This document shows, piece after piece, positions 4,143 through 23,556 of a DNA stretch of 64,000 nucleotides. This stretch comes from Methanoculleus frigidifontis. Lineage in GTDB: Archaea > Halobacteriota > Methanomicrobia > Methanomicrobiales > Methanoculleaceae. The notes beneath the pieces are model-generated. The model was not told the origin of the DNA. It saw only the letters and a program-made list of their open reading frames with translations, and did not search any database. Numbering within the stretch: position 1 is the stretch's first letter; every line of letters starts with the position of its first letter. The stretch spans positions 372,001 through 436,000 of the forward strand of contig NZ_VCYH01000001.1 in assembly GCF_030464345.1 (NCBI RefSeq), read 5' to 3'. The position numbers and the translations under genes were made by a program.

Positions 4143-6773
4143 TCAGGCGCCCCGGGCAATCTCACCGACGGCGGCGATGAGAAGATCGATCTCCTGCTCG
4201 GTGGTGTAGAGCGCGATGCTCGCCCGCACCGCGCCATCGGGAAGCCCGAGGTATTCCAGGAGCGGCTGGCAGCAGTGGTACCCTGACCGCACCAGGATGT
4301 CTGCTTCCTCATCGAGGTGCTGGGCGATCTCGTGCGGGTGGAAGCCCTCGACGGTGAAGGAGACGACGCCGATGCGGGATGCCGGATCGGCGGGCGCGTA
4401 GACCCGGACACCGTCGATCGCGGAGAGCCCCCCGATGAGCCGCGTCGTCAGGCGCTCTTCGTGCCTGCGGATCTTCTCCATACCGATCTTCGAGAGGTAG
4501 TCTGCCGCAACCCCGAGCCCGATCCCGCCGGAAATATTCGGCGTCCCTGCTTCGTAGCGGCCGTAACCTTCCGCCGGGACGTAGCCGTCCTCCGTGACGG
4601 CCTCGACCATCCCGCCGCCGAGCATAAGCGGCTCGAGGTTCGGTTCGCGCATCCAGAGGACGCCGGTGCCGGTCGGCCCGAGCATCTTCTGTCCTGAGAA
4701 GCAGAGGAAGTCGCATCCGATCCGGGAGACGTCGACCGGCATATGCGGGACGGACTGCGCGGCATCAACGAGCAGCAGAACCCCGCGATCCCGGCAGATC
4801 CGGCCGATCTCCTTGATCGGGGCGACGACGCCGATGGCGTTCGAGGCGTGGGTGACGGTGACGAGCCGGGTCGTATCGGTGACGGCGTCTTCGAGCGCGG
4901 CGAGATCGAGTGAGTAGTCCTCGTTGATGCCGACGACGTCGAGCGCCACGCCCTGCCGGGCGAGCGCCCGCCATGGCAGCAGGTTCGAGTGGTGCTCGAG
5001 AACCGTGGTGATCACCCGGTCGCCCGGCTTCCAGCAGAGCCCCTGCGCGACCATGTTGATCGCCTCGGTCGTATTCTTCGTAAAGACCGTCGTCCCGTCT
5101 TCTCCGCCGATGAACCGCGCAACCTTCTCGTGGGCGTGCCAGTAGCGCTGCGTGGCGATCCGGGTGAACCGGTGCACGCCCCGGCCGACGTTGGCCCGGT
5201 AGCGGTGCTCGAACTCAACCTGCGCTGCTACGACCGGCTCGGGCGCAAAGCTCATCGCCGCCGAGTCGAGGTAGACGACGTCTCCGAGGATCGGGAAGTC
5301 CTTCCTGACGGCGTCGACGGAGAACTCCCCGGTATCGGTCGGGACTGCCGGTGCGGCGGGTTCGGGCTTCGCCGGCGCCTCCCGCCGCTCTTCTTCCGGC
5401 AGGGGACGCAGGGTGTAGTCGTCGTTGACGGCGATACCCTTCTCCCTGCAGACCTCGCGCATCTTCGGCGGCAGCGCCCGCCACCGCCAGAGCCCCCAGG
5501 TGCAGTAGGCCTCGGGCATCCCGGTCTTCGCCGCCCATCTCTCGAGGAAAGCGTCCCAGCGCCGGGTGAGGTCGGGGTGCATCACCCGGAGAGCCTCGTA
5601 CTCGCTCTCGAGCATTGCCGGGCAGAGGAAGCACCCGATCCGCTCGAGCCCCTTCTCGTAGAGGGGGTTGATCGGAACCTTCCGCCACCAGAGGTAGAGG
5701 AAGACTTCGAGTGCCCGCCAGCTCCGGATCGGGGAGACGTTCAGCTGCAGGGGGTTCGCCGGGTTCTGGCTCGTTTCATCGAGGTCGGCGCGGTTCCAGG
5801 ACTCGTACCACCGGTTCCCCTGCATCGTGACCGAGGGGCCGATCTCGGCGAGGTAGATCTTGAGCGGGTGGAGCTTTAAGAGTTTGCAGCACCAGCGGTG
5901 GTCCTTTCCGGGAGGGCCGACCTTCTCGACCGCCTGGAAGAAGTCTCCGGCTTTCCGGACGATCTCGACGCCCTGCGATTCGATGTACTCGAGCGTCTCG
6001 GGAAGTTCGATCCCGGTGTCGATGAAGAACGCTTTCGTAACACCGGCTTTCCGGGCGAGGTGGAGGACGGCGGCGCTGTCCTTGCCGCCGGAGAAGGATA
6101 CGTTCGCGTTCGGCCGGTCGTGCATGTGCTGGCGGATGGTGCGGACGGCGGCCCGCTCGAGGTTTTTGAGGTGATAGCGGTTCCGCTCGACGGCAAGGCT
6201 CCAGTCCGGGTCTCTGAAGGTCTCCGGGGTCACCGGCGAGAGTTCCTTCACCTTGATATGCCCCTCCCGAACAATGCCGGTGCCGACTTTGCCCCGGTAG
6301 GTCACGATCACCGTCCCGTCGGGCGCCGGGGTTTGCAGGGGAAACCGTTTGCCGCCGATCCGCACCTTTCCCCTGCCGGCATCGAGGTGCTCCTCGAGGG
6401 CGACGATGCCGCGTGTTGCGTGCGGCAGAATTGAGAGGAGCGCCTCGGGCGCGATGTCGAGAGAGAATCTCCGCTCGACCGGGTCGAACGTGAGCCAGCC
6501 GAAGCGGTTCCCGTTCAGGATCACGAGGTCGGCGCGATCGGTGCCCCCGGTCTTGTTCAGGAGCACGATCTTCGGCAGGGGGACTACGCCGAACCGCTCG
6601 CGGACGAGCCGCGTGATGAGGTCCATGTCCGCTTTCAGTGCCGGGCGGAGATCGTAGGGTTGCAGGAGCGGGATCTGCCTTCCGTCAGCCCCGCAGCCGC
6701 ACCGGCGGCCGATGAGGGGGACGTTGCAGGTATCGCACCAGTAGAGAACTTTTTTTACGGCCGGTTCACGCAT
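4143..6773 (-). CDS. PP-loop (PAPS reductase-like) / class V cysteine desulfurase fusion
   Basis: This 876-residue protein joins two sulfur enzymes. The N terminus holds a CxxC...CGC zinc-ribbon-like segment (WCDTCNVPLIGRRCGCG) and a PUA-like stretch. A PP-loop ATPase domain follows with VSFSGGKDSAAVLHL and cysteines in WCCKLLK and GCFLCP that could hold an Fe-S cluster. After a Pro/Ala-rich linker near residue 470, a class V aminotransferase fold runs to the end with the PLP-lysine motif CFSGQKMLGPTGTG and the persulfide loop RSGYHCCQP, as in SufS/CsdA enzymes. ATG at 6773 is chosen because a TATA-like TTCTTATTG lies about 29 bases upstream; TTG at 6803 is possible. The desulfurase may feed the PP-loop domain and the neighbouring FdhD. 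Confidence 0.85.
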   Translation of the reverse strand: MREPAVKKVLYWCDTCNVPLIGRRCGCGADGRQIPLLQPYDLRPALKADMDLITRLVRERFGVVPLPKIVLLNKTGGTDRADLVILNGNRFGWLTFDPVERRFSLDIAPEALLSILPHATRGIVALEEHLDAGRGKVRIGGKRFPLQTPAPDGTVIVTYRGKVGTGIVREGHIKVKELSPVTPETFRDPDWSLAVERNRYHLKNLERAAVRTIRQHMHDRPNANVSFSGGKDSAAVLHLARKAGVTKAFFIDTGIELPETLEYIESQGVEIVRKAGDFFQAVEKVGPPGKDHRWCCKLLKLHPLKIYLAEIGPSVTMQGNRWYESWNRADLDETSQNPANPLQLNVSPIRSWRALEVFLYLWWRKVPINPLYEKGLERIGCFLCPAMLESEYEALRVMHPDLTRRWDAFLERWAAKTGMPEAYCTWGLWRWRALPPKMREVCREKGIAVNDDYTLRPLPEEERREAPAKPEPAAPAVPTDTGEFSVDAVRKDFPILGDVVYLDSAAMSFAPEPVVAAQVEFEHRYRANVGRGVHRFTRIATQRYWHAHEKVARFIGGEDGTTVFTKNTTEAINMVAQGLCWKPGDRVITTVLEHHSNLLPWRALARQGVALDVVGINEDYSLDLAALEDAVTDTTRLVTVTHASNAIGVVAPIKEIGRICRDRGVLLLVDAAQSVPHMPVDVSRIGCDFLCFSGQKMLGPTGTGVLWMREPNLEPLMLGGGMVEAVTEDGYVPAEGYGRYEAGTPNISGGIGLGVAADYLSKIGMEKIRRHEERLTTRLIGGLSAIDGVRVYAPADPASRIGVVSFTVEGFHPHEIAQHLDEEADILVRSGYHCCQPLLEYLGLPDGAVRASIALYTTEQEIDLLIAAVGEIARGA

Positions 6774-6842
6774 CTCATAGATGAGGTACGCTGTATCAGA
6801 CAATAAGAAGACCGGTGATTCAGGGAGGGAGCGGCTGCTCCG

Positions 6843-9082: not shown

Positions 9083-9658
9083 TCAGGCACGGATCTTCCG
9101 GAGGAGCCAGGCCATATTCCGGCCGAGGTTCTGCATCGTCCTGATCCCCTCGGCGTCCTCTTCGACGTCGCCGGGCTCAAGGCCGATCCCGATGTTCCAG
9201 TAGGAGGAGCCCACGGTGAACATGTTGCTGATCCCGAAGAAGTGGTTGATTGAGTCGAAGGCGTGGACTGCTCCGGCGCGCCGGACAGCGACGACGGCAG
9301 CCCCGACCTTCCGGGTATAGAGCCCGCCGTTCGCGATCCCGACGTAGCCCGCCCGGTCGATGAGCGCCTTCGTCTCGGGCGAGAGATCAGCGAAGTAGGT
9401 CGGCGAGCCGATGATGATCCCGTCCGCGGCGATCATCTTCTCGATGCAGTCGTTGACGAAATCATTCCCGATGATGCAGCGGTTGTCCAGGTTTTCGAAG
9501 CATTTCTGGCAGGCGGTACAGCCGTGCACTGTTCTGCCCCCGATATGGACGAGTTCGGTCTCGATCCCCTCCTCTTCGAGGACGGCGAGGGCGCATCGGA
9601 TCAGCTGTTCGGTGTTTCCTCCTGCTCGCGGACTGCCGTTGAATGCGACGACATACAT
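9083..9658 (-). CDS. Iron-sulfur flavoprotein (NADPH-dependent FMN reductase fold)
   Basis: This 191-residue protein starts MYVVAFNGSPRAGGNTEQL, the FMN phosphate loop of flavodoxin-fold reductases. It then has GCTACQKCFENLDNRC, a CX2CX2CX7C cysteine cluster typical of archaeal iron-sulfur flavoproteins, which hold FMN and a 4Fe-4S cluster and can reduce oxygen or hydrogen peroxide. IIIGSPTYFADLSPETKAL is the second flavin loop. A TATA-like CTATACC lies about 29 bases before the ATG. The divergent intergenic region contains a palindrome resembling the MsvR box, which fits a redox-stress role. A stray copy of its last 25 codons ends the secreted protein at 7835. Confidence 0.88.
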   Translation of the reverse strand: MYVVAFNGSPRAGGNTEQLIRCALAVLEEEGIETELVHIGGRTVHGCTACQKCFENLDNRCIIGNDFVNDCIEKMIAADGIIIGSPTYFADLSPETKALIDRAGYVGIANGGLYTRKVGAAVVAVRRAGAVHAFDSINHFFGISNMFTVGSSYWNIGIGLEPGDVEEDAEGIRTMQNLGRNMAWLLRKIRA

Positions 9659-10084: not shown

Positions 10085-11395
10085 TCACGCTTCCCGCTCT
10101 GCGGCGATGCGGATCACCTCTGCCGGGCAGGCGATCTCGAATCGGGCGCCTCCGTCGGGAGAGCCGGTTTCGCGGATTGTTATCCCGGTGATGGCGAGAA
10201 CCTCCCGCGCAAGGAAGAGCCCGAGCCCGGTGTTCTTTCCGGATCCATACGCGAAGATCTTCTCCTTCTCGCCCTCCGGGACGCCGACGCCGTTGTCCTC
10301 GCAGACGATGCGGCCGACGCCTCCCGTCTCTTCGAGGCTGAACCGGATGGCGGTGATCGTCTCCCCGTAGCGAACCGCGTTCTCGATGAGATTGACGAAG
10401 ACCTTCTCGATGAGCGGGTCGGCGTAGATCTCGACTCCTGCAGGGACGGCGTTCTCAAGAGCGACCGTCCCAAGCGGCGTATACATCCGGGAACGCTCTA
10501 CGACGTCCCGTATCTCGTGCCAGACAGGTGATGCCACGCCGATCTTCTGGTACTCCGCCGCAAACCGGATGGTGCGCGTCATCCGGTCGACGGCATCCTG
10601 TGCATTCGATACAAACTTCCAGGAGGTTTCAGGGTCAGAGTCCCGGGAGCCCGCGGCGAGCTCGAGGTATCCGTTCATCGCCATGAGTAGATTGAGAAGA
10701 TCGTGCCGGGTGATGCTCGCCATCAGCTGGAGTTTTTTGTTCGCCTCAGAGAGCGCCTTCTCCACGCGCCTCCGCTCAGCGTTTTCCTGCGAAAGATCGT
10801 CGTTCGCGCGCTCAAGATCGGCAACTGCCCGCTGCAGCTCCCGGTTCACTGCATTGAGCCGCTCCTGCGCCTCCTGCAGCTCGACATTCTTCCCGACGGC
10901 GATCTCGTAGGTGGAGAGGAGGGTGTTGAGAATCTGCCGCCTGCCGGCGGACAGGGTATACATTCGGCCTGCAAAAAAGACCTCCATGCCCGGGTCGGTG
11001 CCGTCGGATCCTGCTCTGTCTGCCGTTCCGAGGATGCTCTCGAGCCGGGAGCGCACGAGGTCCGCCTCGCAGGGTTTGATGATGAAACTGTCTGCCCCCG
11101 CTTCAAGCCCTCGCATCACATCGGCAGGATCGGAGAGATGGGTGACCAGAATGACGGGAATGTCGCTGGTTGCTGTATCCTGCTTGATCCTGCGGCAGAG
11201 ATCGTAGCCGTCCATCTCCGGCATGACGATGTCGGTCAGGATGACGGCCGGTCGATCGGCTGCAACCGCCTCCAGAGCAGCACGCCCGTCCGGTGCCATG
11301 CCGACCCGGTAGCCTTCCTTCTCGAGAATGTGGCGGAGATACTCGGCCTGGGTGCGGCTGTCTTCCACGACCAGTATCTTCATGCCCGGTGTCAC
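10085..11395 (-). CDS. REC-histidine kinase hybrid
   Basis: This 436-residue protein begins with a receiver domain (MKILVVEDSRTQAEYLRHIL, phosphoacceptor Asp in ILTDIVMPEMDGYDL, conserved Lys in FIIKPCE). A coiled linker around residues 155-225 leads to an H-box with ITRHDLLNLLMAMNGYL and a C-terminal ATPase (NLIENAVRYGE, CEDNGVGVPEGEKE, NTGLGLFLAREV). The GTG at 11395 is preferred because GGAGGAG lies 6 bases before it; ATG at 11428 would overlap cheA and has no such site. It lies 19 bases downstream of the cheA hybrid and is the last gene of the sensory block. CheA could phosphorylate its receiver and so control its own kinase. No membrane segment is visible. Confidence 0.85.
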   Translation of the reverse strand: MTPGMKILVVEDSRTQAEYLRHILEKEGYRVGMAPDGRAALEAVAADRPAVILTDIVMPEMDGYDLCRRIKQDTATSDIPVILVTHLSDPADVMRGLEAGADSFIIKPCEADLVRSRLESILGTADRAGSDGTDPGMEVFFAGRMYTLSAGRRQILNTLLSTYEIAVGKNVELQEAQERLNAVNRELQRAVADLERANDDLSQENAERRRVEKALSEANKKLQLMASITRHDLLNLLMAMNGYLELAAGSRDSDPETSWKFVSNAQDAVDRMTRTIRFAAEYQKIGVASPVWHEIRDVVERSRMYTPLGTVALENAVPAGVEIYADPLIEKVFVNLIENAVRYGETITAIRFSLEETGGVGRIVCEDNGVGVPEGEKEKIFAYGSGKNTGLGLFLAREVLAITGITIRETGSPDGGARFEIACPAEVIRIAAEREA

Positions 11396-11414
11396 GTTTT
11401 GCTCCTCCATATCA

Positions 11415-13688
11415 TCAGTGTCTGCCACGCATCAGGCTGTCTATGATGTCCAGGAGATCCGGCTGCTTGAAGCCGGCCTTGACGATATATGCATCCGCCC
11501 CGATGGCAATGCCGTGGTCGCGGTCTTCCGGAAGATCGAGCGAGGTGACCAGCACCACCGGGAGCCGTGCAAGCCGGGGATTCGCCCGGATCTTCTCGGT
11601 GAGCGTAAACCCGTCCATCACGGGCATATCCACGTCAGAGATGACGATATCAAACTCATGCTTCTTAAGGATTGCGAATCCTTCCATGCCGTCGGCGGCC
11701 GTCTCAACATAATATCCCGCCCGTTCAAGGAGATTTTGAAGAAGAGACCGAGATGTTACCGAATCTTCGACGACAAGAACCGACCGGCGGACCTTCCCGG
11801 TAGGCCCGGCCGGCAGGGGCGACCGTTCGGCCGCAAGCGCCTCCTGAACGAGTTCGAGGGGGTCGAGAACCAGTGCCACGTTCCCGTTGCCCAGTATCAC
11901 CGCGCCCTCGATAAGCCTCACGCACCGGAGCTGGCTGCCCAGCGGCCTGACGACGATCTCCTGGACGCGTATCACCTCGTCGACCATACACGCGATCCGG
12001 CCGGCACCGTGGGAGAGAATGACGACGGGAATCTGCTCGTGCCGATCGGAGAGGGGCGATGCACCGGCCGCTCCCAGGGCTTCATGCAGTCGAATCGCTT
12101 CTATCACTTCGCCCTGGAACCGGATCGCCGGCCGCCTGTCCTGCTGCAGGATGGCCTCCCGCCGCACCCGCGACACCTGCCGTACCGACTGCATGGGAAC
12201 GACGTAGATCTGCCTCCCGGAGCGGACGACAACCCCGCGCAGGGTTGCAAGGTTCACCGGCACCGCCAGGGTGAACGTCGTCCCCTCACCGACGGTCGAT
12301 ACAACACCGACCGTTCCGCCCAGGCGGGTGACGCTCTCCTCGACGATCGACAGGCCAAGCCCTCTCCCCGAGATCTCGGTTACGAACGGGCTTGTGGAGA
12401 GCCCTGACCGGAAGATGAGCCGCATCGCCGCATCTTCGGTCAGTTCCCCCGCTTCATCGGCACCGATAAGGCCTTTTCCAACGGCTGCACGCCTGACCAC
12501 CCTGCCGTCGATACCTCTGCCGTCGTCTGCGACCTCGATCCGGACGCTGCTTCCGGTAAGGGGGGATATCCATATCCGGATGGTGCCGGCCGGCGGCTTT
12601 CCGTGCTGTACCCGGGTTTCCGGGCGCTCGATCCCGTGGTCGATGCTGTTGCGGATCAGGTGGCGGAGCGGGTCCGCTACGGCCTCGAGGATACGGCGGT
12701 CGACCTCGACCTCGCCCCCTTCGACGATAAACTCCACTGCTTTTCCGGAAGTGCGGGAAAACTCCCTGACAAACCCGGAGAATGGCGTGAGTATGCTTGC
12801 GATCGGCACCAGGACGGCATCGTGGATCAGGTCGGAGATCTCCGACGTGCTCGCCTCGAGCGCAGACCGGTCGAGCTCGGTTCCGCGCATATGCGACCCG
12901 AGGTCGTGCTGCAGGAGGCGGACGAACTCCCGGTTATACTCCAGAAATTCCATTGTCCGCTCGAGCGGGAGGACGAAGGCTGGTGGGAGGGCCGCCCCCG
13001 TTGTTTCGGACGTGGCTTCGCGCAGCTGGCGGAGGTCATGACCGACCTGGGCGTAGTTCCACTGCCAGAGAGAGAACCGGGTGAACATATCCTCGAGTTC
13101 GAGCATCCGCTGCGTGAGGAAAAGCCGGGTCGTGAGGAGGGCGTCCGCCCCGGCGATCAGCCGGTCGAGTTTATGGGCGGCTATCCTGACCGTTCCCCGT
13201 TCTTTCGGCTCCGGAGCCGTATCTTTTTGTCCCGGATGAGCCATCTGCCCGGGCGACGGTCCTGCTGCCGCACCGACGGATTTTCCCCCGTCGAGGAGGA
13301 GGCGGGATTCGCGGAGCATGGCGATCACCTCCGTCGTCGGCACCGACGGGTCGTCCGCCCATGCAAGAAGCATCCTCACGACCGTTACCGCCTGGTGGAG
13401 GCGATCGTAGGTCTCCGCATCGGGCGGTGTCCCGCCCTGCTTCATGAGCGCAAAGATGTTCTCAATGTTCTGGCAGACGGACTCGATAGTCCGGAGATTG
13501 ACCGCGCGGGCAGCCCCCTTCAGGCTGTGGGTCTTGCGGTATACCGACTCGATCAGCGGCAGCCCGGCCGACGCCCCCGCCCGCTCGAGCTCGACGAGGC
13601 CTTCGGTGATCGCATCGAGGTATTCCTCCGCCTCTTCACGGAAGGTCTCAAGGAGCCTTCTCTCGAATTCTTCGTCGGATCCGGTCAT
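11415..13688 (-). CDS. cheA: CheA-type chemosensory kinase with C-terminal receiver
   Basis: This 757-residue hybrid has an N-terminal Hpt (P1) domain with the phosphorylated His in YRKTHSLKGAARAVNL, a variable region, a CheA-type ATPase (LRHLIRNSIDHGIERPET, VADDGRGIDGR, GRGLGLSIVEESV), a CheW-like coupling domain (VNLATLRGVVVRSGRQIYVVP) and a receiver (SVLVVEDSVTSRSLLQNLL; Asp in IVISDVDMPVMDGF). No separate P2 CheY-binding domain is obvious. It begins 12 bases after the transducer gene. The built-in receiver and lack of cheY, cheB or cheR nearby suggest a pathway with a non-flagellar output, as in alternative-function chemosensory systems. The coupling partners are probably the two CheW proteins upstream. 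Confidence 0.92.
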   Translation of the reverse strand: MTGSDEEFERRLLETFREEAEEYLDAITEGLVELERAGASAGLPLIESVYRKTHSLKGAARAVNLRTIESVCQNIENIFALMKQGGTPPDAETYDRLHQAVTVVRMLLAWADDPSVPTTEVIAMLRESRLLLDGGKSVGAAAGPSPGQMAHPGQKDTAPEPKERGTVRIAAHKLDRLIAGADALLTTRLFLTQRMLELEDMFTRFSLWQWNYAQVGHDLRQLREATSETTGAALPPAFVLPLERTMEFLEYNREFVRLLQHDLGSHMRGTELDRSALEASTSEISDLIHDAVLVPIASILTPFSGFVREFSRTSGKAVEFIVEGGEVEVDRRILEAVADPLRHLIRNSIDHGIERPETRVQHGKPPAGTIRIWISPLTGSSVRIEVADDGRGIDGRVVRRAAVGKGLIGADEAGELTEDAAMRLIFRSGLSTSPFVTEISGRGLGLSIVEESVTRLGGTVGVVSTVGEGTTFTLAVPVNLATLRGVVVRSGRQIYVVPMQSVRQVSRVRREAILQQDRRPAIRFQGEVIEAIRLHEALGAAGASPLSDRHEQIPVVILSHGAGRIACMVDEVIRVQEIVVRPLGSQLRCVRLIEGAVILGNGNVALVLDPLELVQEALAAERSPLPAGPTGKVRRSVLVVEDSVTSRSLLQNLLERAGYYVETAADGMEGFAILKKHEFDIVISDVDMPVMDGFTLTEKIRANPRLARLPVVLVTSLDLPEDRDHGIAIGADAYIVKAGFKQPDLLDIIDSLMRGRH

Positions 13689-13700
13689 TACACCCGCACA

Positions 13701-16085
13701 TCAGACATTGTACTGCTGGGAGATCTTCTGTAAGCGGACGCCGAGTTCGTGCAGATCCTCTGCCGTGTTCTCTGCTTTTTTGGCAATTTCAAGGTTATTC
13801 TGGGCGGCATCGCGGATGTTCTCCATCGCAAGCGAGATCTGGTCGACCCCGGCGACCTGCTCCTGGGTCGAGGCCGCAATCTCGACCGCTTCGTGGGAGG
13901 AGTCGGCGATCGACCGGGTGAGCACCTCGATCGCCTCCCGGGCATCGCTGGTCAGGCTGACGGCGTTCGCCATAGACCGCGCGCCCTCCTCGGTCGAGGT
14001 CATCGTCGAGGAGACGCCCCGCTGGATGTCGGTGAGGATGACCCTGATGTTTGCGGTGGCCTTCTTCGACTGCTCGGCGAGGTTATGGATCTCGTTTGCG
14101 ACGACGGCGAAACCCCTGCCGTACTCGCCGGCCTTCGCCGCCTCGATGGAGGCGTTCACCGCAAGCAGATTGGACTGTTCGGAGATGTCCGTCACCGTGG
14201 CGATGATCTCCCCGACCGCCTGGCTCTGCTCGGAGAGCTTGATGACGTTCATCCTGATAGTGTCCATCTGCCGCTGGATCTGGGTGATGCCGTTCATCAA
14301 TTCCCGGATCGACTTCTGGCCGTCCTTCGAGACATCGAGTGCGGTCATCGCCTTTTCAGAGACCTCCTTTGTCTTCTGGTTCACGACATCGGTCTTTTGC
14401 CTGACGCCCTCGACCGCCTCAGAGGTCTCGTTCACGGTCGTTGCGGTCTGTGAACTGGCCTCGGAGAGCTGGGCGGTGACCTCGAGGATCTCGCTCGATG
14501 CCGACGAGAGGACAGAAATTCCCTCGTACAGCTCTTCGGTGATCAGTTTCATCAGCCGCGAGAGTTCGATGCCGACGGTGTTGAGTGCGTCGCGGTAGGC
14601 CACAAACTCACCGGCGACCGGGATCGTCTCGTCGAACCGTGCGGTGAAGTCGCCGGAGGCGTAGTACTTGGCAAGCCGCATCGCCTCGTTCACCGGTTCG
14701 GTGATCGTCTCGAGCGTCTTGTTGAACCCGGCGATGATCATCCTGTATCCGCCGTGGAACGCATTTTCGTCCCCGCGCACCGAGAGGTCACCGGCACGGG
14801 TGGCGTTGGTGAGTTTGATCGTCTCTTTGTGGAGGTGGTCGAGCGACTGGACCATCATCTTCAGTGCCGGCCGGATCTCGTCGCGCTCGTCGGTGACCGG
14901 GAACTCCTGGACGTATTCGCCCGCCGCTATCTTTCTGATGTTCCCGACGACGTTGGTCTGAAGGTCCTCGGCGAACTCGTCCATCGTTGCCGCCATGATC
15001 CCGATCTCGTCCTGCCGGTTGATGTTGAGCCGGGTCGAGAGATGGCCGTTCCGGAGATCTTTGAGCATCACCACGACCCGCTGGAGGGGGTCGGAGATCG
15101 AGCGGCCGAAGAGGACGGCGATAAGCGCGCCGATCGCGATAAACGCCGCGACCACGATCAGTATGGTGTCCCTGATGGTGTCGATGGGGCCGGCAAAGTC
15201 GGAGAGCTCTGCACGCGAGACGATGTACCAGTCGAGCGGCTCGTAGTAGGTGTAGGCATCGATGATATCGGTTTCGTCCACCCGGTGCGGGATGGTGCCG
15301 ACTTTGTCTGCAAACATCTCCTGGATGTAGCCTTCCCCTGCCCAGTTCTCGCCTTCACTTGACGGATGGATGAGCACCTCGCCTGCGCTGTCGACGACGT
15401 ACATATAGCCGTGCTGGCCGATCACCGCGTCCCGGATGCTCTCCTTCACGACGTCCAGAGTCTCCTGCTCCTCCGTGCCGACGTAAAGGACACCGATCGT
15501 CCTTCCGCCGGCATCTTTTATCGGTTCGTATGCAGTGACGTATTTTGTCCCGAAGAGGTCCCGCGTCCCGTAGTACGTCTCGCCCTGGTTGACAACCACG
15601 TCGTAGACGTTGTACTTCAGCTCCGTTCCGGCAGCCCTGGTGCCGTCGCTTCCGATGACGTTGGTTGAGATACGGACGGCGTGGTTGCCGTCATAGACCT
15701 GGAAGATCGTCGCCGTGCCGCCGACGAGGTCCTGGACCTGATCGACGATCTCGAAGTTTTCGTTGACCACGTACCGCTTTCCGTCCGCGTCCACCAGCGT
15801 GAGGTTTCCGTCGATGATCACGGGCGTACCCCGTGCGTAGAAGTTCTGCCGCAGGACATTGAGATCGCTGTTCACCTTGTTGAGGGTGAGCTTGTAGACA
15901 TCGTTGGTCCACCCCTTCACGTCGTGCACCTGCGTCTCGAGCAATGTCTCGATCTGATCGTTGATGACACCGCTCGCACTGGTGTATGCCACCAGCCCGA
16001 GCAGGAGCGTCGGGATGATCGCCAGGAAGAGGCTGATGACAAGGATCTTTGTCCCGACTTTCATATTGGAGAAGAATTCGAACAT
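13701..16085 (-). CDS. Methyl-accepting transducer with dCACHE sensor
   Basis: This 794-residue transducer has a membrane helix at about residues 14-32 ([19 protein letters not shown]), an extracellular dCACHE-like region to about residue 305 (including [19 protein letters not shown] and [19 protein letters not shown]), a second helix ([20 protein letters not shown]), HAMP segments and a long cytoplasmic coiled coil. Its signalling tip reads [20 protein letters not shown] then [19 protein letters not shown], the conserved CheA/CheW-binding hairpin. It is more likely a receptor for a small molecule than a pure rhodopsin transducer, because it has its own large sensor domain. It starts the mcp-cheA-kinase group, after a terminator-like palindrome. 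Confidence 0.92.
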
Positions 16086-16148
16086 GGTCTGATCCGTCCC
16101 ATCCGGTCGGCGCGTGCGTTGATAGTAGTCTGATTATCTTCTCGCGGT

Positions 16149-16167
16149 AAAAAAGGATCCTTTTTTT
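16149..16167. terminator. A/T-flanked GGATCC palindrome, bidirectional terminator
   Basis: Six A, GGATCC and six or seven T form a perfect palindrome between the second cheW and the transducer gene. On the minus strand the T run follows the cheW pair and could end its transcript, so the transducer probably has its own promoter in 16086-16148 (GATAATC is a weak candidate). Confidence 0.5.
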
Positions 16168-16225
16168 CTGGGCGTTTTGAGTGGCGCTCCATTAAATTCT
16201 GGGGATATTCCGGCAGATTTCCCGA

Positions 16226-16774
16226 TCACTGTCGGGAATCGTCGATTACCATCCGCGGATCTGCGAGGATTGCTGCGGCGTCGAGGACGGTGAGCTGCCC
16301 GTCCGCAACACCCATGATGTACCGTTCATCGATGAGGTCTTCTCCGGGCTCCGCCGGGGCGAGGTCGTCCGTCGGCACCGTTCCGATGTCGGTGATGTAG
16401 TCGGCGAGGATGCCGAAGGTGATCCTCCCGTCGGTCAGCACAATGACCCGGTTCAGGTCGGTCAGCCCCTTCTGTGGAATGGCAAAGAGGATCCGCAGGT
16501 CGACGAGCGAGACGATTTCACCCCTGACCGCACAGATCCCGGCGATGTACTCCGGCGTCCCGGGAACCGGTGTGATCTCCCGGATGATGAAGACCTCCCT
16601 GATGTACTTCATCTCAAGAGCGTATCTTCGGTGGGCAAGCCGGAAGATGAGGATATCCGCGAGCACGGCCTCGCGCGGTTCTTCCTCCGGCAGGGCGAGT
16701 TTCGCCGCCCGCTCCGCCAGCACGGCCATGACCCGCTCGGCGTCCTCCCCATCGCCGCCGGAAGGAACCGTCAC
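16226..16774 (-). CDS. cheW: CheW-type coupling protein (second copy)
   Basis: This 182-residue protein has an N-terminal helical extension of about 40 residues (AERVMAVLAERAAKLALPEE), then a CheW fold: ILIFRLAHRRYALEMKYIRE, ITPVPGTPEYIAGICAVRGE, IVSLVDLRILFAIP and VIVLTDGRITFGILADY. CheW links transducers to CheA. The GTG start at 16774 overlaps the stop of the upstream cheW in a GTGA arrangement, which signals translational coupling. The extension is unlike E. coli CheW and could mediate a special contact. Confidence 0.88.
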   Translation of the reverse strand: MTVPSGGDGEDAERVMAVLAERAAKLALPEEEPREAVLADILIFRLAHRRYALEMKYIREVFIIREITPVPGTPEYIAGICAVRGEIVSLVDLRILFAIPQKGLTDLNRVIVLTDGRITFGILADYITDIGTVPTDDLAPAEPGEDLIDERYIMGVADGQLTVLDAAAILADPRMVIDDSRQ

Positions 16775-17235
16775 CTGCCGCCCTCCGCTGCCCCGGAACT
16801 CCGGCGGACGGCAGCCCGGAGAGTCTCTGCATCTGCCTCTGCGAGGAACGCGCCGATATCGCTGATGATGACCGTCCCGCCCTCGGTCACCGCCGCACCG
16901 GGGACGGCGATCTGCTCCTGTCCGTTCCCGAGCCCGACGTTTCCCCGGACGCCGGAGGTCTCGTCCACCCAGAGGGCGGCACGCCCCCGGCCGTGCCGGA
17001 CGACGATCAGGGCATCGGTGAGCCGCGGGGGGCGCTCCGCAGACCCGAAGCGTGCCCGGAGCGAATAGACCGGAACGGGACTGCCGTGAACGTCGATGGC
17101 TCCGACCTCGCCCCCATGGCAGTCCCATCCCGGGATGAACTGCACCATTCTGACGACGGCCTGGGTTGCGGCAAGCGGGATTGCGCACTCGATCCCCTCG
17201 ACGAAGAAGAACAGGAAATGCTCGCGATGAACCAT
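16771..17235 (-). CDS. cheW: CheW-type coupling protein (first copy)
   Basis: This 154-residue protein starts MVHREHFLFFFVEGIECAIP and continues AVVRMVQFIPGWDCHGGEVG, AIDVHGSPVPVYSLRARFG and ALIVVRHGRGRAALWVDETS, a divergent CheW fold. It overlaps the next cheW by four bases. The start at 17235 is set by the ATG in front of the conserved first strand; a TATA-like CCTAAATAGG about 32 bases upstream may be its promoter. Sequence identity to the second copy is low, so the two may couple different receptors, such as the rhodopsin and the dCACHE transducer. That split is inference. Confidence 0.82.
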   Translation of the reverse strand: MVHREHFLFFFVEGIECAIPLAATQAVVRMVQFIPGWDCHGGEVGAIDVHGSPVPVYSLRARFGSAERPPRLTDALIVVRHGRGRAALWVDETSGVRGNVGLGNGQEQIAVPGAAVTEGGTVIISDIGAFLAEADAETLRAAVRRSSGAAEGGR

Positions 17236-17306: not shown

Positions 17307-17948
17307 CTACCGGCGAGGAAGAACTCGCACCGTGATCCAGAGGCCGAAGACGATCTTGGTGATGACGTCGAGGATGCCGTAGAGCACCGCCCCGACGGGG
17401 GTGGTAATGATCCCAAATCCGGTCGGCGCCAGGATCCAGACGACCGGAAAGAGCGTCCAGAATATCAGGATGAACCACATGACCGGCCTCATGCCCGGCT
17501 CCGTCCTCCCCGTCCCGGCGAAGAGGGTGTAGAGGAGGCCTGCATATGCTGCGCTGCTGAAGGCAAAGAACCACCACCGCTCCGGTCCGGTGAGGAAGCT
17601 TGCCAGGAAGCCGCAGAACATGACGAGCCCGGTGAAGAGCGCGACCTCGAGTTTGGTCAGTATGGGCTTGCCGGCGAGATAGGCCACGTCGAGCGTCAGG
17701 ATGCTGCAGCTTGCGATGTAATAAAGCCACCGTGTCCAGTATATCGGCTGCCCGTCCGCCGCGACGGACGTCCCGAGGGCGAGCGCCATCGTGACGTACG
17801 AGATCGTCGTGATAAAGCAGACGAAGATATCGGAGCCGTATAAGACCTCGTACCCGGGCCTGCGCACGTTGAGCACCACAAAGAGCAGGGTGGCAAGCCC
17901 GAAGATCACCGCCCCGGCCCAGAAGACCAGCATCTCTTCACCAGCCAT
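17307..17948 (-). CDS. Microbial (type I) rhodopsin, sensory-like
   Basis: This 213-residue protein has seven membrane helices and aligns with bacteriorhodopsin without gaps in helix C (PIYWTRWLYYIASCSI), F (FWTLFPVVWILAPTG) and G (GILDVITKIVFGLW). The Schiff-base lysine is kept (K198, bR K216), as are D194 (bR D212), R73 (bR R82), D87 (bR D96), W164, P168 and W171. The main counterion and proton acceptor bR D85 is Y76, next to Y77 (bR W86), and T89-T90-P91 reads S-C-S. Proton pumping is thus unlikely and a sensory role is inferred, supported by the cheW, transducer and cheA genes directly downstream. ATG at 17948 is chosen for the GGTGA 6 bases before it; ATG at 17954 is possible. No retinal synthesis gene is in the window. 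Confidence 0.88.
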   Translation of the reverse strand: MAGEEMLVFWAGAVIFGLATLLFVVLNVRRPGYEVLYGSDIFVCFITTISYVTMALALGTSVAADGQPIYWTRWLYYIASCSILTLDVAYLAGKPILTKLEVALFTGLVMFCGFLASFLTGPERWWFFAFSSAAYAGLLYTLFAGTGRTEPGMRPVMWFILIFWTLFPVVWILAPTGFGIITTPVGAVLYGILDVITKIVFGLWITVRVLPRR

Positions 17949-18058
17949 GACCATTCACCGCATGCATCATGCCTGCCCGGCCAGATAAGGATAGCGGCTA
18001 CCGGTGCCGCCCGCATCTGACCGGCTGATTGATACGGTCCGGGCACCATACGGCACCT

Positions 18059-18850
18059 ATGAAGGTGCTGGTCGTCATGGGCAGCCCGCGGAAAGGCAAC
18101 ACTTACCGGGCGGCGGAACGAATCCGGGAGGCGATGCAGTCGTCCGCATCGCCGGTCGTGTTCGAGTACCTGATGCTGAAGGATGCCGATCTTGCACAGT
18201 GCCTGGGCTGTTTTCTCTGCTTTGAGAAGGGCGAGGAGCGCTGCCCCCACAGGGACGACGCGGCGGCCATCGAAGCGAAGATGCACGAGGCCGACGGCGT
18301 GATCTTTGCATCTCCGGTCTACGGGATGAACGTTTCGGGGCTGATGAAGGTCTTCATCGACCGGCTCAGCTACATCTTCCACCGCCCCCGCTTCTTCGAC
18401 AAGCATGCGCTCCTCCTCGTGACCACCGGCGCGCTCGGGGAGAAGGACGTCCTCGACTATCTCAATCTTGTCGCCGGCATATGGGGTTTCTCCGTCGCCG
18501 CCCGTGTCGGGATTGTCACGTCGCCGGTCATCGCCGCGCGGCAGGCGCGGAAGAACGAACAGAAACTTGAAAAGGCCGCACAAGCATTCGCGGGCGCCCT
18601 TGCCCGCAAAGCGCGGCCGTCGCCCGGGCTGCGGGACGTCATCGTCTTCCACGGCCAGCGGGGAACGTTTGCCGAGCTCCGGGAGCACGCGCCGGTTGAT
18701 TATGCCTACTGGAAGGATATGGGCTGGCTCGAACCAGGAAGGCGCTACTTCGTCGATGTACCGATCAACCCGGTCTACGACGTGATCGGCCGCGTTGTGG
18801 AGTGGCAGGCCCGGCGGCAGGTCAGGCGGAGCCTTGCGGAGGCGGGGTGA
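18059..18850 (+). CDS. Iron-sulfur flavoprotein-like NAD(P)H:FMN reductase
   Basis: This 263-residue protein starts MKVLVVMGSPRKGNTYRAAE (FMN phosphate loop), has AQCLGCFLCFEKGEERC (CX2CX2CX7C, the compact cluster motif of iron-sulfur flavoproteins) and VIFASPVYGMNVSGLMKVF (second flavin loop). It is longer than the other two such proteins in this window because of a helical C-terminal extension (residues about 175-263) that ends in a basic segment. It is divergent from the rhodopsin gene with 110 bases between the starts. The electron donor and acceptor are unknown; the family is linked to oxygen and peroxide reduction. Confidence 0.85.
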   Translation: MKVLVVMGSPRKGNTYRAAERIREAMQSSASPVVFEYLMLKDADLAQCLGCFLCFEKGEERCPHRDDAAAIEAKMHEADGVIFASPVYGMNVSGLMKVFIDRLSYIFHRPRFFDKHALLLVTTGALGEKDVLDYLNLVAGIWGFSVAARVGIVTSPVIAARQARKNEQKLEKAAQAFAGALARKARPSPGLRDVIVFHGQRGTFAELREHAPVDYAYWKDMGWLEPGRRYFVDVPINPVYDVIGRVVEWQARRQVRRSLAEAG

Positions 18851-20816: not shown

Positions 20817-22052
20817 ATGAGAGAAAAAGCCTGTGGATTAGATCTCCACAAGAAGTTTATCGTCGCCGCTGTTGTCGATCAGGACGGTACAGTGGCAGAA
20901 CAGCGATTCAGCCGGACGCAGACCGATTTGCTTCTGCTGAAGGACTGGGTCAGTTACCACGGCTGTGAGGTTGTAGCCTGTGAATCCACCAGCGATTACT
21001 GGGTACAGGTCTACGACCTGTTTGCAGGGCAGATCCCGGTAATCGTCGGAAATGCCCGGGATATCAAGGCACTCTCGCACAAGAAGACGGACAGGATCGA
21101 TGCCGTCTGGATCGCCAAGTTGGCACTGCACGACCTCATTCCCGCCTCCCGGGTTCCCGACCGGGAGCAACGAGATCTTCGCGCGCTGATCCGGTTACGG
21201 AAGTTTCTGGTTGAGAAACGAACCGATCTCAAGAACCAGGTGCACCATATCCTCGACTCCTGCCTGTTCCAGCTCGCAAAGGTCTTCAGCGATATCTTCG
21301 GCGCAAGCGGAATGGTTGTCCTGACCGGCATCACCGAAGGGAAACCTGTCGAGGAGATCCTTGCCTCTCTTCCGAAACGAACCCAAAAGCGGGGTGAAGA
21401 GATCCGCCGTGTTCTGGAGACAACCCTGTCAGAAACCGCGATCGTCCGGCTGCAAACCTGTCTCGCTCTCATCAAAGAGATGGACAGCCAGATCGCGATC
21501 ATCATGCAGCTGGTGCACCAGTGTGTCACCGGAAAGAAGCGGCTTATCCGGATCCTGACCTCAATGCCCGGGATCGGGTACCTCGCCGCGGTGACTCTGA
21601 TCGCCGAGATCGGGGACTTCACCGACTTCTCATCCGGGGACAAACTCGCCAGCTGGGCGGGACTCGTCCCGACCGTGCATCAGTCGGCCGATCATCTCCG
21701 GATGGGATCGATCACCAAACGGGGCTCCCGGACGCTTCGGTGGATCTGTGTCGAGATCGCTCACGCGGCAGTTCGAACCCGGTCGTCACGGTTTTACGCG
21801 TTCTTCACCAGGAAGGTCGGGCAACTCGGGTTCGGTAAGGCGATTGTTGCTGTGGCGCGCAAGATCCTCACGATCCTCTGGCATCTGGTGGTGAACGACG
21901 AGGAATACGAAGAGCAGGAGGGGAACCGGAAACGGGAGATCCGGATACCAAAAGCGAAACAACCGAAGTTTCTGACACTGAACGAGATGCTCAAAGTGCT
22001 TGCCGAGGCGAACATCTTCCTCAAACAATCAGATCCGCATGGAGGTGGGTGA
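20817..22052 (+). CDS. IS110-family transposase (first element)
   Basis: This 411-residue protein starts with the DEDD RuvC-like domain of IS110 recombinases (GLDLHKKFIVAAVVDQDG with the first catalytic Asp, ACESTSDYW with Glu, KTDRIDAVWIAKLA with two Asp). It ends with the transposase_20 domain (LTSMPGIGYLAAVTLIAEIG, LASWAGLVPTVHQS and the conserved Ser region GSRTLRWICVEIAHAA). Both halves are intact, so the enzyme could be active. It shares fold and gene order with the transposase 240 bases downstream but is clearly a different protein. Family knowledge: these enzymes use a bridge RNA to choose target and donor. Confidence 0.93.
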   Translation: MREKACGLDLHKKFIVAAVVDQDGTVAEQRFSRTQTDLLLLKDWVSYHGCEVVACESTSDYWVQVYDLFAGQIPVIVGNARDIKALSHKKTDRIDAVWIAKLALHDLIPASRVPDREQRDLRALIRLRKFLVEKRTDLKNQVHHILDSCLFQLAKVFSDIFGASGMVVLTGITEGKPVEEILASLPKRTQKRGEEIRRVLETTLSETAIVRLQTCLALIKEMDSQIAIIMQLVHQCVTGKKRLIRILTSMPGIGYLAAVTLIAEIGDFTDFSSGDKLASWAGLVPTVHQSADHLRMGSITKRGSRTLRWICVEIAHAAVRTRSSRFYAFFTRKVGQLGFGKAIVAVARKILTILWHLVVNDEEYEEQEGNRKREIRIPKAKQPKFLTLNEMLKVLAEANIFLKQSDPHGGG

Positions 22053-22293: not shown

Positions 22294-23556
22294 ATGAGGT
22301 CGAACGACAAAGTAGTCTGTGGCGTTGACGTTCACAAAAAGTTTCTTGTCGCTGCCCTGATCACCGCCGACGGAGACAGCATCTTCGGACGCTTCACCAA
22401 CAGCCAGTCCGGACTGCTGGAACTGCTCCAATGGCTGCTGCAGTATGGCTGCCAGCTCGTTGCCGCTGAATCGACCGGCGTCTACTGGTATCCCCTGTTC
22501 CTTGCGCTAGAGGATCACATGGAGGTCATAATTGCCAACCCGCGCCAGATCAAGGCAATCCCGGGCAGGAAGACCGACCGGAACGACGCCCAGTGGATCG
22601 CGGAGCTTGCCCGGAACGGTCTGATCAAACCGTCCCGGATCTTTCGGCGGGATGACCGGGAACTGCGCAAACTCACCCGGGCACGGCACAAACTCATTCA
22701 GGAGAGAACCGATCATGTCAACCGCGTTCACCAGATCCTCGAAGCGGTGGGGATCCATCTGGCATCGGTGGTCTCCGATATCTTCGGCAAAGCAGGGCAG
22801 TTTATCCTGCGCAGCCTCCTCGATGGAGTCGCGATCGAGGAGATCGTGGAACGCATCCCTGTTGCCCGGATCAAAAAGAAGAAGGAAGCTCTCCTTGATG
22901 CACTGCACACCCATCTCGGCCCGGTCGACCGAGTTCTGCTTGAACAGCATCTGGAGATCATTCAGGTGATCGATGCAAAGGTGGCGGAGATCGACACCGA
23001 AGTGATCGCCGGGTTCGTCGATCGGCGAGATGACCTTGAGATCCTCATCTCGATCCCGGGGATCGGGGTCACCTCCGCGGTCACCATCCTTGCCGAGATC
23101 GGGAACTACCGTGACTTCCCCTCTGCAGAAAAACTCGCAGCCTGGTGCGGGATTGTTCCTTCTGTTTACCAGTCTGCCGACACTCTCAGGACAGGGACGA
23201 TCACGAAGCAGGGTTCCCGGCAGCTGCGGTGGATCCTGGTGGAAGTTGCACACGCGGCAGCACGAACCAAGCACTCCGCATTGCACCGCTACTTTATGCG
23301 GTTGAAGCGGCGGATCGGCTACCTCAAAGCAATTGTCGCCCTTGCCCATAAAATTCTCCGCCTGCTCTGGCATCTTTTGATGAACCGGGAATTCTACGAG
23401 GAGTCGCATCGTCCGGAAAAGGTGAAGGGGGATCTCCTTGAGGACAAAAACCTGCACCGGCGGGAGCGCAGTGCGATTGCCCTCCTGACTCGACTGAATT
23501 ACGTGATCACAAAGCCCCGGAACGACATTGAGTTTAAAGGAGTGCAGGGAGGCTAA
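22294..23556 (+). CDS. IS110-family transposase (second element)
   Basis: This 420-residue transposase has the DEDD domain (CGVDVHKKFLVAALITADGD, AAESTGVYWYPLF, RKTDRNDAQWIAELARNG) and the C-terminal transposase_20 domain (SIPGIGVTSAVTILAEIGNY, AAWCGIVPSVYQSADTLR, GSRQLRWILVEVAHAA). All segments are complete. The ATG at 22294 follows a GGAGGT at 22282-22287. The C-terminal tail (after residue 370) is charged and differs from the first transposase. The gene is bracketed by 16-base inverted repeats. Confidence 0.93.
   Translation: MRSNDKVVCGVDVHKKFLVAALITADGDSIFGRFTNSQSGLLELLQWLLQYGCQLVAAESTGVYWYPLFLALEDHMEVIIANPRQIKAIPGRKTDRNDAQWIAELARNGLIKPSRIFRRDDRELRKLTRARHKLIQERTDHVNRVHQILEAVGIHLASVVSDIFGKAGQFILRSLLDGVAIEEIVERIPVARIKKKKEALLDALHTHLGPVDRVLLEQHLEIIQVIDAKVAEIDTEVIAGFVDRRDDLEILISIPGIGVTSAVTILAEIGNYRDFPSAEKLAAWCGIVPSVYQSADTLRTGTITKQGSRQLRWILVEVAHAAARTKHSALHRYFMRLKRRIGYLKAIVALAHKILRLLWHLLMNREFYEESHRPEKVKGDLLEDKNLHRRERSAIALLTRLNYVITKPRNDIEFKGVQGG

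Follow-up and report, generated by a model that had tools for sequence, protein, structure and literature searches.

The closest described relatives of the protein considered here are the schizorhodopsins (SzRs) of Asgard archaea, represented by SzR1-SzR4 and LaSzR2, and the Antarctic rhodopsin (AntR, PDB 9or2), a protein of bacterial origin. For LaSzR2, inward proton pumping has been demonstrated with an absorption at 549 nm, and its D184 is presumed to be the sole counterion, with no other carboxylate near the Schiff base, while Glu81 on the cytoplasmic side of SzRs is not conserved across the family (PMC7704677). In xenorhodopsins, Asp is retained at the position of bacteriorhodopsin (BR) D85 and Pro replaces D212 (PMC7704677). 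Sensory rhodopsins I and II have the seven-helix retinal fold in common with all these proteins, retain Asp at D85 and have a dedicated Htr partner. Here, a rhodopsin of Methanoculleus frigidifontis is described from a window of 64,000 nucleotides, i.e., the whole stretch of DNA that was analysed and to which all coordinates in Table 1 refer. In contrast to the hosts of the Asgard SzRs, this host is a methanogen, whose genome contains two copies of mcrA.

Identity, integrity and distribution of the rhodopsin

The reading frame of the rhodopsin is intact on the minus strand, with the start codon at 17948 (MAGEEMLVFW...) and the stop codon at 17309-17307; a second in-frame ATG is located upstream at 17954, and the relatives start at MAGEE. 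The gene is present as a single copy in the whole M. frigidifontis genome. The protein has the features of a type-1 rhodopsin, namely a match to PF01036 (Bac_rhodopsin) as the sole Pfam match (1.1e-28, 100.7 bits with a cut-off of 24.6), seven helices in an AlphaFold model built with 8 homologues (mean pLDDT 75, pTM 0.74) and a Lys (K198) in helix G. Thus, the recognition of a seven-helix, retinal-lysine rhodopsin in a methanogen by the first-pass annotation, made from the DNA sequence alone, was indeed correct.

The sister species (G037) encodes a rhodopsin with 90% protein identity and the same key residues. Comparison of the two copies gave a dN of 0.05 and a dS of 0.44 (dN/dS ~0.11), and hence the protein is under purifying selection, i.e., is being retained. 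A sequencing artefact or frameshift, for which the first-pass annotation had allowed, is excluded by the identical key residues of the G037 copy together with this selection.

Table 1. Features of the rhodopsin locus, with positions in the window
Feature	Position	Strand	Basis
Schizorhodopsin-family microbial rhodopsin, 213 aa	17307..17948	-	PF01036, SzR4 match, tree clade
Codons 73 R (BR R82) and 74 W	17727..17732	-	alignment; DNA cgg tgg
Codons 76-77 Tyr-Tyr: Y76 = BR D85/SzR4 F70, Y77 = BR W86/SzR4 Y71	17718..17723	-	alignment; DNA tat tac
Codon 87 D (BR D96/SzR4 E81), cytoplasmic-side carboxylate	17688..17690	-	alignment
Codon 194 D (BR D212/SzR4 D184), presumed sole counterion	17367..17369	-	alignment
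Codon 198 K (BR K216/SzR4 K188), retinal Schiff-base lysine	17355..17357	-	alignment
NADPH-dependent FMN reductase-like, divergent neighbour, conserved beside G037 rhodopsin (L007 8660-9478)	18029..18850	+	PF03358
CheW-like, first gene of adjoining che cluster; rhodopsin linkage not conserved	16771..17235	-	PF01584
Remainder of che cluster	10085..16700	-	Pfam
CheW, second of che cluster	within 10085..16700	-	Pfam
Cache_3/HAMP methyl-accepting protein (MCP)	13701-16085	-	Pfam
CheA-receiver	11415-13688	-	Pfam
Receiver-histidine kinase	10085-11428	-	Pfam

The rhodopsin is found in 2 of the 40 genomes of the family, both belonging to the host's own genus (M. frigidifontis and G037). A class-level search revealed matches in 5 of 232 genomes (one of the five below the family cut-off; the match in G159, partial and below cut-off, was left out), with homologues beyond the host's family in G097 and G099, which belong to another family, and a phylum-level search added the methanogen G257. 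Homologues are therefore present in five methanogen genomes of three genera, all five with mcrA. In a public genome collection, searched by a method that detects close relatives only, the only relatives found were those of Hermodarchaeota (Asgard archaea; L003-L006), which are 53-56% identical to the M. frigidifontis protein. A search for viral homologues found none, and the search of plasmids revealed only a distant Salinibacter rhodopsin (28%). Such a patchy occurrence and the failure of our searches to find retinal synthesis genes could be accounted for by a decaying or chromophore-less relic from another archaeon, non-functional for want of retinal; however, the retention of every pocket residue, a dN/dS of ~0.11 maintained at a dS of 0.44 between two species and the conservation of neighbouring genes between M. 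frigidifontis and G037 make a relic quite unlikely.

Placement among schizorhodopsins

In a sequence search of the PDB, SzR4 (7e4g) ranked first (E 3.8e-35), followed by the Antarctic rhodopsin, with chloride pumps lower and BR lower by a wide margin, and a profile search gave the same order (SzR4 6.1e-48). SzR4 7e4g was also rank 1 with Foldseek, by a modest margin over chloride pumps and BR. In a tree of 25 rhodopsins, one clade (100/100; 11 rows) unites the M. frigidifontis protein and its methanogen homologues with SzR4, AntR and the four proteins from Hermodarchaeota. The branch that separates it from the haloarchaeal pumps and sensors has a length of 2.1 changes per site, the branching order inside the clade not being resolved by this tree. 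By sequence, fold and tree, and by its conserved pocket residues, the protein is a schizorhodopsin, being 37% identical to SzR4 with the same fold and 39% identical to AntR.

Both the family and its function are already known, and the methanogen protein is a further member. Kawasaki, Konno and Inoue reportedly described in 2021 (Chem. Phys. Lett. 779:138868) the thermostable SzRs MtSzR and MsSzR from Methanoculleus taiwanensis and Methanoculleus sp., respectively, and these may be the M. frigidifontis protein or that of its sister, in which case the protein is already published. In the papers searched, in which the 2021 study of these thermostable rhodopsins figures as a reference cited by PMC9257189, no text linking schizorhodopsin with Methanoculleus was found.

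Retinal pocket

Residues were compared in an alignment of 15 rhodopsins, comprising 10 SzR-type rows and five others. The equivalents of D194 and K198 are invariant in all 15, while the BR D85 site in the SzR-type rows is occupied by Phe (8 of 10) or Tyr (M. frigidifontis and G037) and never by a carboxylate; an eleventh SzR-type sequence, from G097, also has Phe. Every SzR-type row has Tyr at the W86, Cys at the T90 and Asp at the D212 site, and the helix C signature R-W-x-[F/Y]-Y-x-x-[S/A]-C is found in 10/10 of these rows and in 0/5 of the other rhodopsins. The M. frigidifontis protein thus shares with the described SzRs an aromatic residue at D85, Tyr at W86, Ser/Cys at T89/T90, the lone Asp at the D212 site and the Lys, and differs in having Tyr rather than Phe at the D85 site and Asp rather than Glu at the E81 site. 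Position 76 is Phe in the Hermodarchaeota rhodopsins, which have the signature in common, and in AntR, and position 87 is Ser and Glu, respectively, in contrast to the Tyr and Asp of M. frigidifontis. The SzR motif at sites F70/S74/E81 (SzR4 numbering) is Phe-Ser-Glu; these sites read Tyr-Ser-Asp here, Phe-Ser-Ser in Hermodarchaeota and Phe-Ala-Asp in G099.

The alignment also confirms the residues assigned in the first-pass annotation (R73, Y76 at D85, Y77 at W86, D194 and K198), and of the two counterion sites (BR D85/D212) only that of D194, proposed there as the only nearby carboxylate counterion, is occupied by a carboxylate. An aromatic residue at D85 with Asp at D212, as provided by Y76 and D194, is the schizorhodopsin counterion pattern. 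Xenorhodopsins are ruled out, since their pattern is the reverse, and a sensory rhodopsin would have Asp in place of Y76. None of the methanogen homologues has Asp at this position.

Judged from the sequences, the change from Phe to Tyr at position 76 would be small and conservative, amounting to one hydroxyl, and Y76 may tune the colour or the photocycle speed of the SzR pocket. Since, of the SzR-type sequences compared, only those of M. frigidifontis and G037 have this Tyr, it might be suspected of more, namely of losing its proton close to the Schiff base and thereby changing the photocycle or the ion transport in kind. This is very improbable, given the conservative nature of the replacement, the continued presence of D194 and the very low pKa that a tyrosinate counterion requires.

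Neighbouring genes and the question of a light sensor

From the missing D85, a non-pumping light sensor had been proposed in the first-pass annotation, which compared the protein only with haloarchaeal pumps and sensors. This proposal is not supported, as the tree places the protein apart from sensory rhodopsins and within the SzR/AntR clade, where an aromatic residue replaces D85 in every member seen and LaSzR2 pumps inward; hence, the missing D85 does not imply a non-pumping sensor.

A sensory role could nevertheless be suggested by the gene order. The rhodopsin gene adjoins an MCP gene, a point of likeness to sensory rhodopsins I/II, and lies 71 bp upstream of cheW-cheW-MCP-cheA-receiver genes in the same direction, so that an SzR-like protein might be coupled to this chemotaxis cluster for phototaxis, with little or no pumping. 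The protein also has Thr at the SRII T204/BR A215 position, though this Thr is common to all SzRs. However, in G037 the rhodopsin is flanked by the same FMN-reductase-like gene upstream and by FMN_red downstream, without the che cluster between them, and the G037 CheA is only a 34% paralogue of the che-cluster CheA. The latter has 58-61% identical relatives in ~20 rhodopsin-less genomes of a neighbouring genus, the MCP carries its own Cache ligand-binding domain, and the SzRs studied to date pump protons inward. Comparison of the G037 locus and of the CheA relatives thus revealed no conserved transducer partner equivalent to Htr. Because the cluster is missing beside the G037 rhodopsin and present in these rhodopsin-less relatives, it is on present evidence an incidental neighbour; a sensory rhodopsin paired with the adjoining MCP is ruled out as the leading reading, and a light sensor of this kind is unlikely.

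Several further features of these neighbourhoods were observed. The che cluster (10085-17235) splits the rhodopsin and FMN_red genes that are neighbours in G037, and so was either inserted in M. frigidifontis or lost in G037. Flavodoxin/FMN-reductase-like genes are located near the rhodopsin in M. frigidifontis (9083-9658 and 18029-18850), near the G257 schizorhodopsin (L058 7819-8271, 9337-9801 and 10498-11340) and possibly beside one Hermodarchaeota schizorhodopsin (L004 3039-3539), a recurrence that is a tally without a test against chance. In Hermodarchaeum (L003 10325-14142), the schizorhodopsin gene is near those of a DNA photolyase and a phytoene-desaturase-like protein, possibly a light-related neighbourhood. 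Two different IS110-family transposases lie side by side near the M. frigidifontis rhodopsin (20817-22052 and 22294-23556). An 886-residue fusion of a PAPS-reductase domain with a class-V aminotransferase of the cysteine-desulfurase type is encoded at 4143-6803, with an 890-residue counterpart in G037 (L007 12810-15482).

Carotenoids and retinal supply

M. frigidifontis has a carotenoid cluster (G000:C4 ~268-272 kb; L016 8090-12351), present also in the sister species (L017 6225-10507), which contains genes for CrtI, phytoene synthase, a UbiA prenyltransferase (PRK12875) and a CruF-like protein. The CrtI matches NCBIfam CrtID, a bifunctional phytoene desaturase/3,4-desaturase (687.9 bits), and the CruF-like protein matches PF04240, with the NCBIfam CruF models scoring below their cut-offs. 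This gene content points to putative acyclic carotenoids of the bacterioruberin type rather than beta-carotene. Members of the phytoene synthase family occur in 15 of the 40 genomes of the family, mostly without a rhodopsin.

Searches of the genome gave no match for the lycopene cyclase model PF18916 (controls positive; the PF05834 type was outside the search), for BCD/Blh (PF15461, a model that works, matching 57 of 394 genomes of the phylum) or for the carotenoid cleavage family RPE65 (PF03055, controls positive). The puzzle raised in the first-pass annotation, that the usual retinal synthesis by oxygen-requiring cleavage of beta-carotene is not expected in a strict anaerobe, is thus upheld. 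Scavenged retinal is the simplest answer. It is very improbable that the rhodopsin is kept under purifying selection thanks to a pathway to retinal that needs no oxygen and has escaped recognition, or thanks to another chromophore, such as a derivative of the cell's own acyclic carotenoids, to which Y76 is adapted.

Proposed function

As the counterion arrangement of LaSzR2 is retained in the M. frigidifontis protein, we infer that it is probably a light-driven inward proton pump of the schizorhodopsin type, predicted to use retinal taken up externally. The apoprotein would bind all-trans retinal at K198, with D194 alone stabilising the protonated Schiff base. Upon illumination, the Schiff-base proton would exit to the cytoplasm with the aid of the carboxylate of residue 87, which is D here and corresponds to E81 in SzR4. 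A proton from outside would then be returned to the Schiff base via the D194 side, with net inward proton transport. The retinal is probably acquired externally, since no lycopene cyclase or cleavage enzyme was detected in the genome. Three considerations count against a pump. With the known retinal synthesis genes missing, the protein could be without a chromophore if retinal does not reach it from elsewhere. For a methanogen, which depends on small ion gradients, letting protons flow inward seems wasteful. Finally, D172, proposed as the proton donor on the extracellular side of LaSzR2, is replaced by Thr182 here, yet SzR4 has Asn at this site.

The only oddity of this rhodopsin is the apparent inability of the cell to make retinal. 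Two questions are raised: what benefit a cell dependent on small ion gradients draws from an inward proton pump, and from where an anaerobe without detected lycopene cyclase and cleavage enzymes obtains its retinal. A missing D85 marks the schizorhodopsin class and not a loss of pumping, which corrects a natural misreading. At least three methanogen genera contain schizorhodopsins, and Asgard archaea have close relatives of these proteins.
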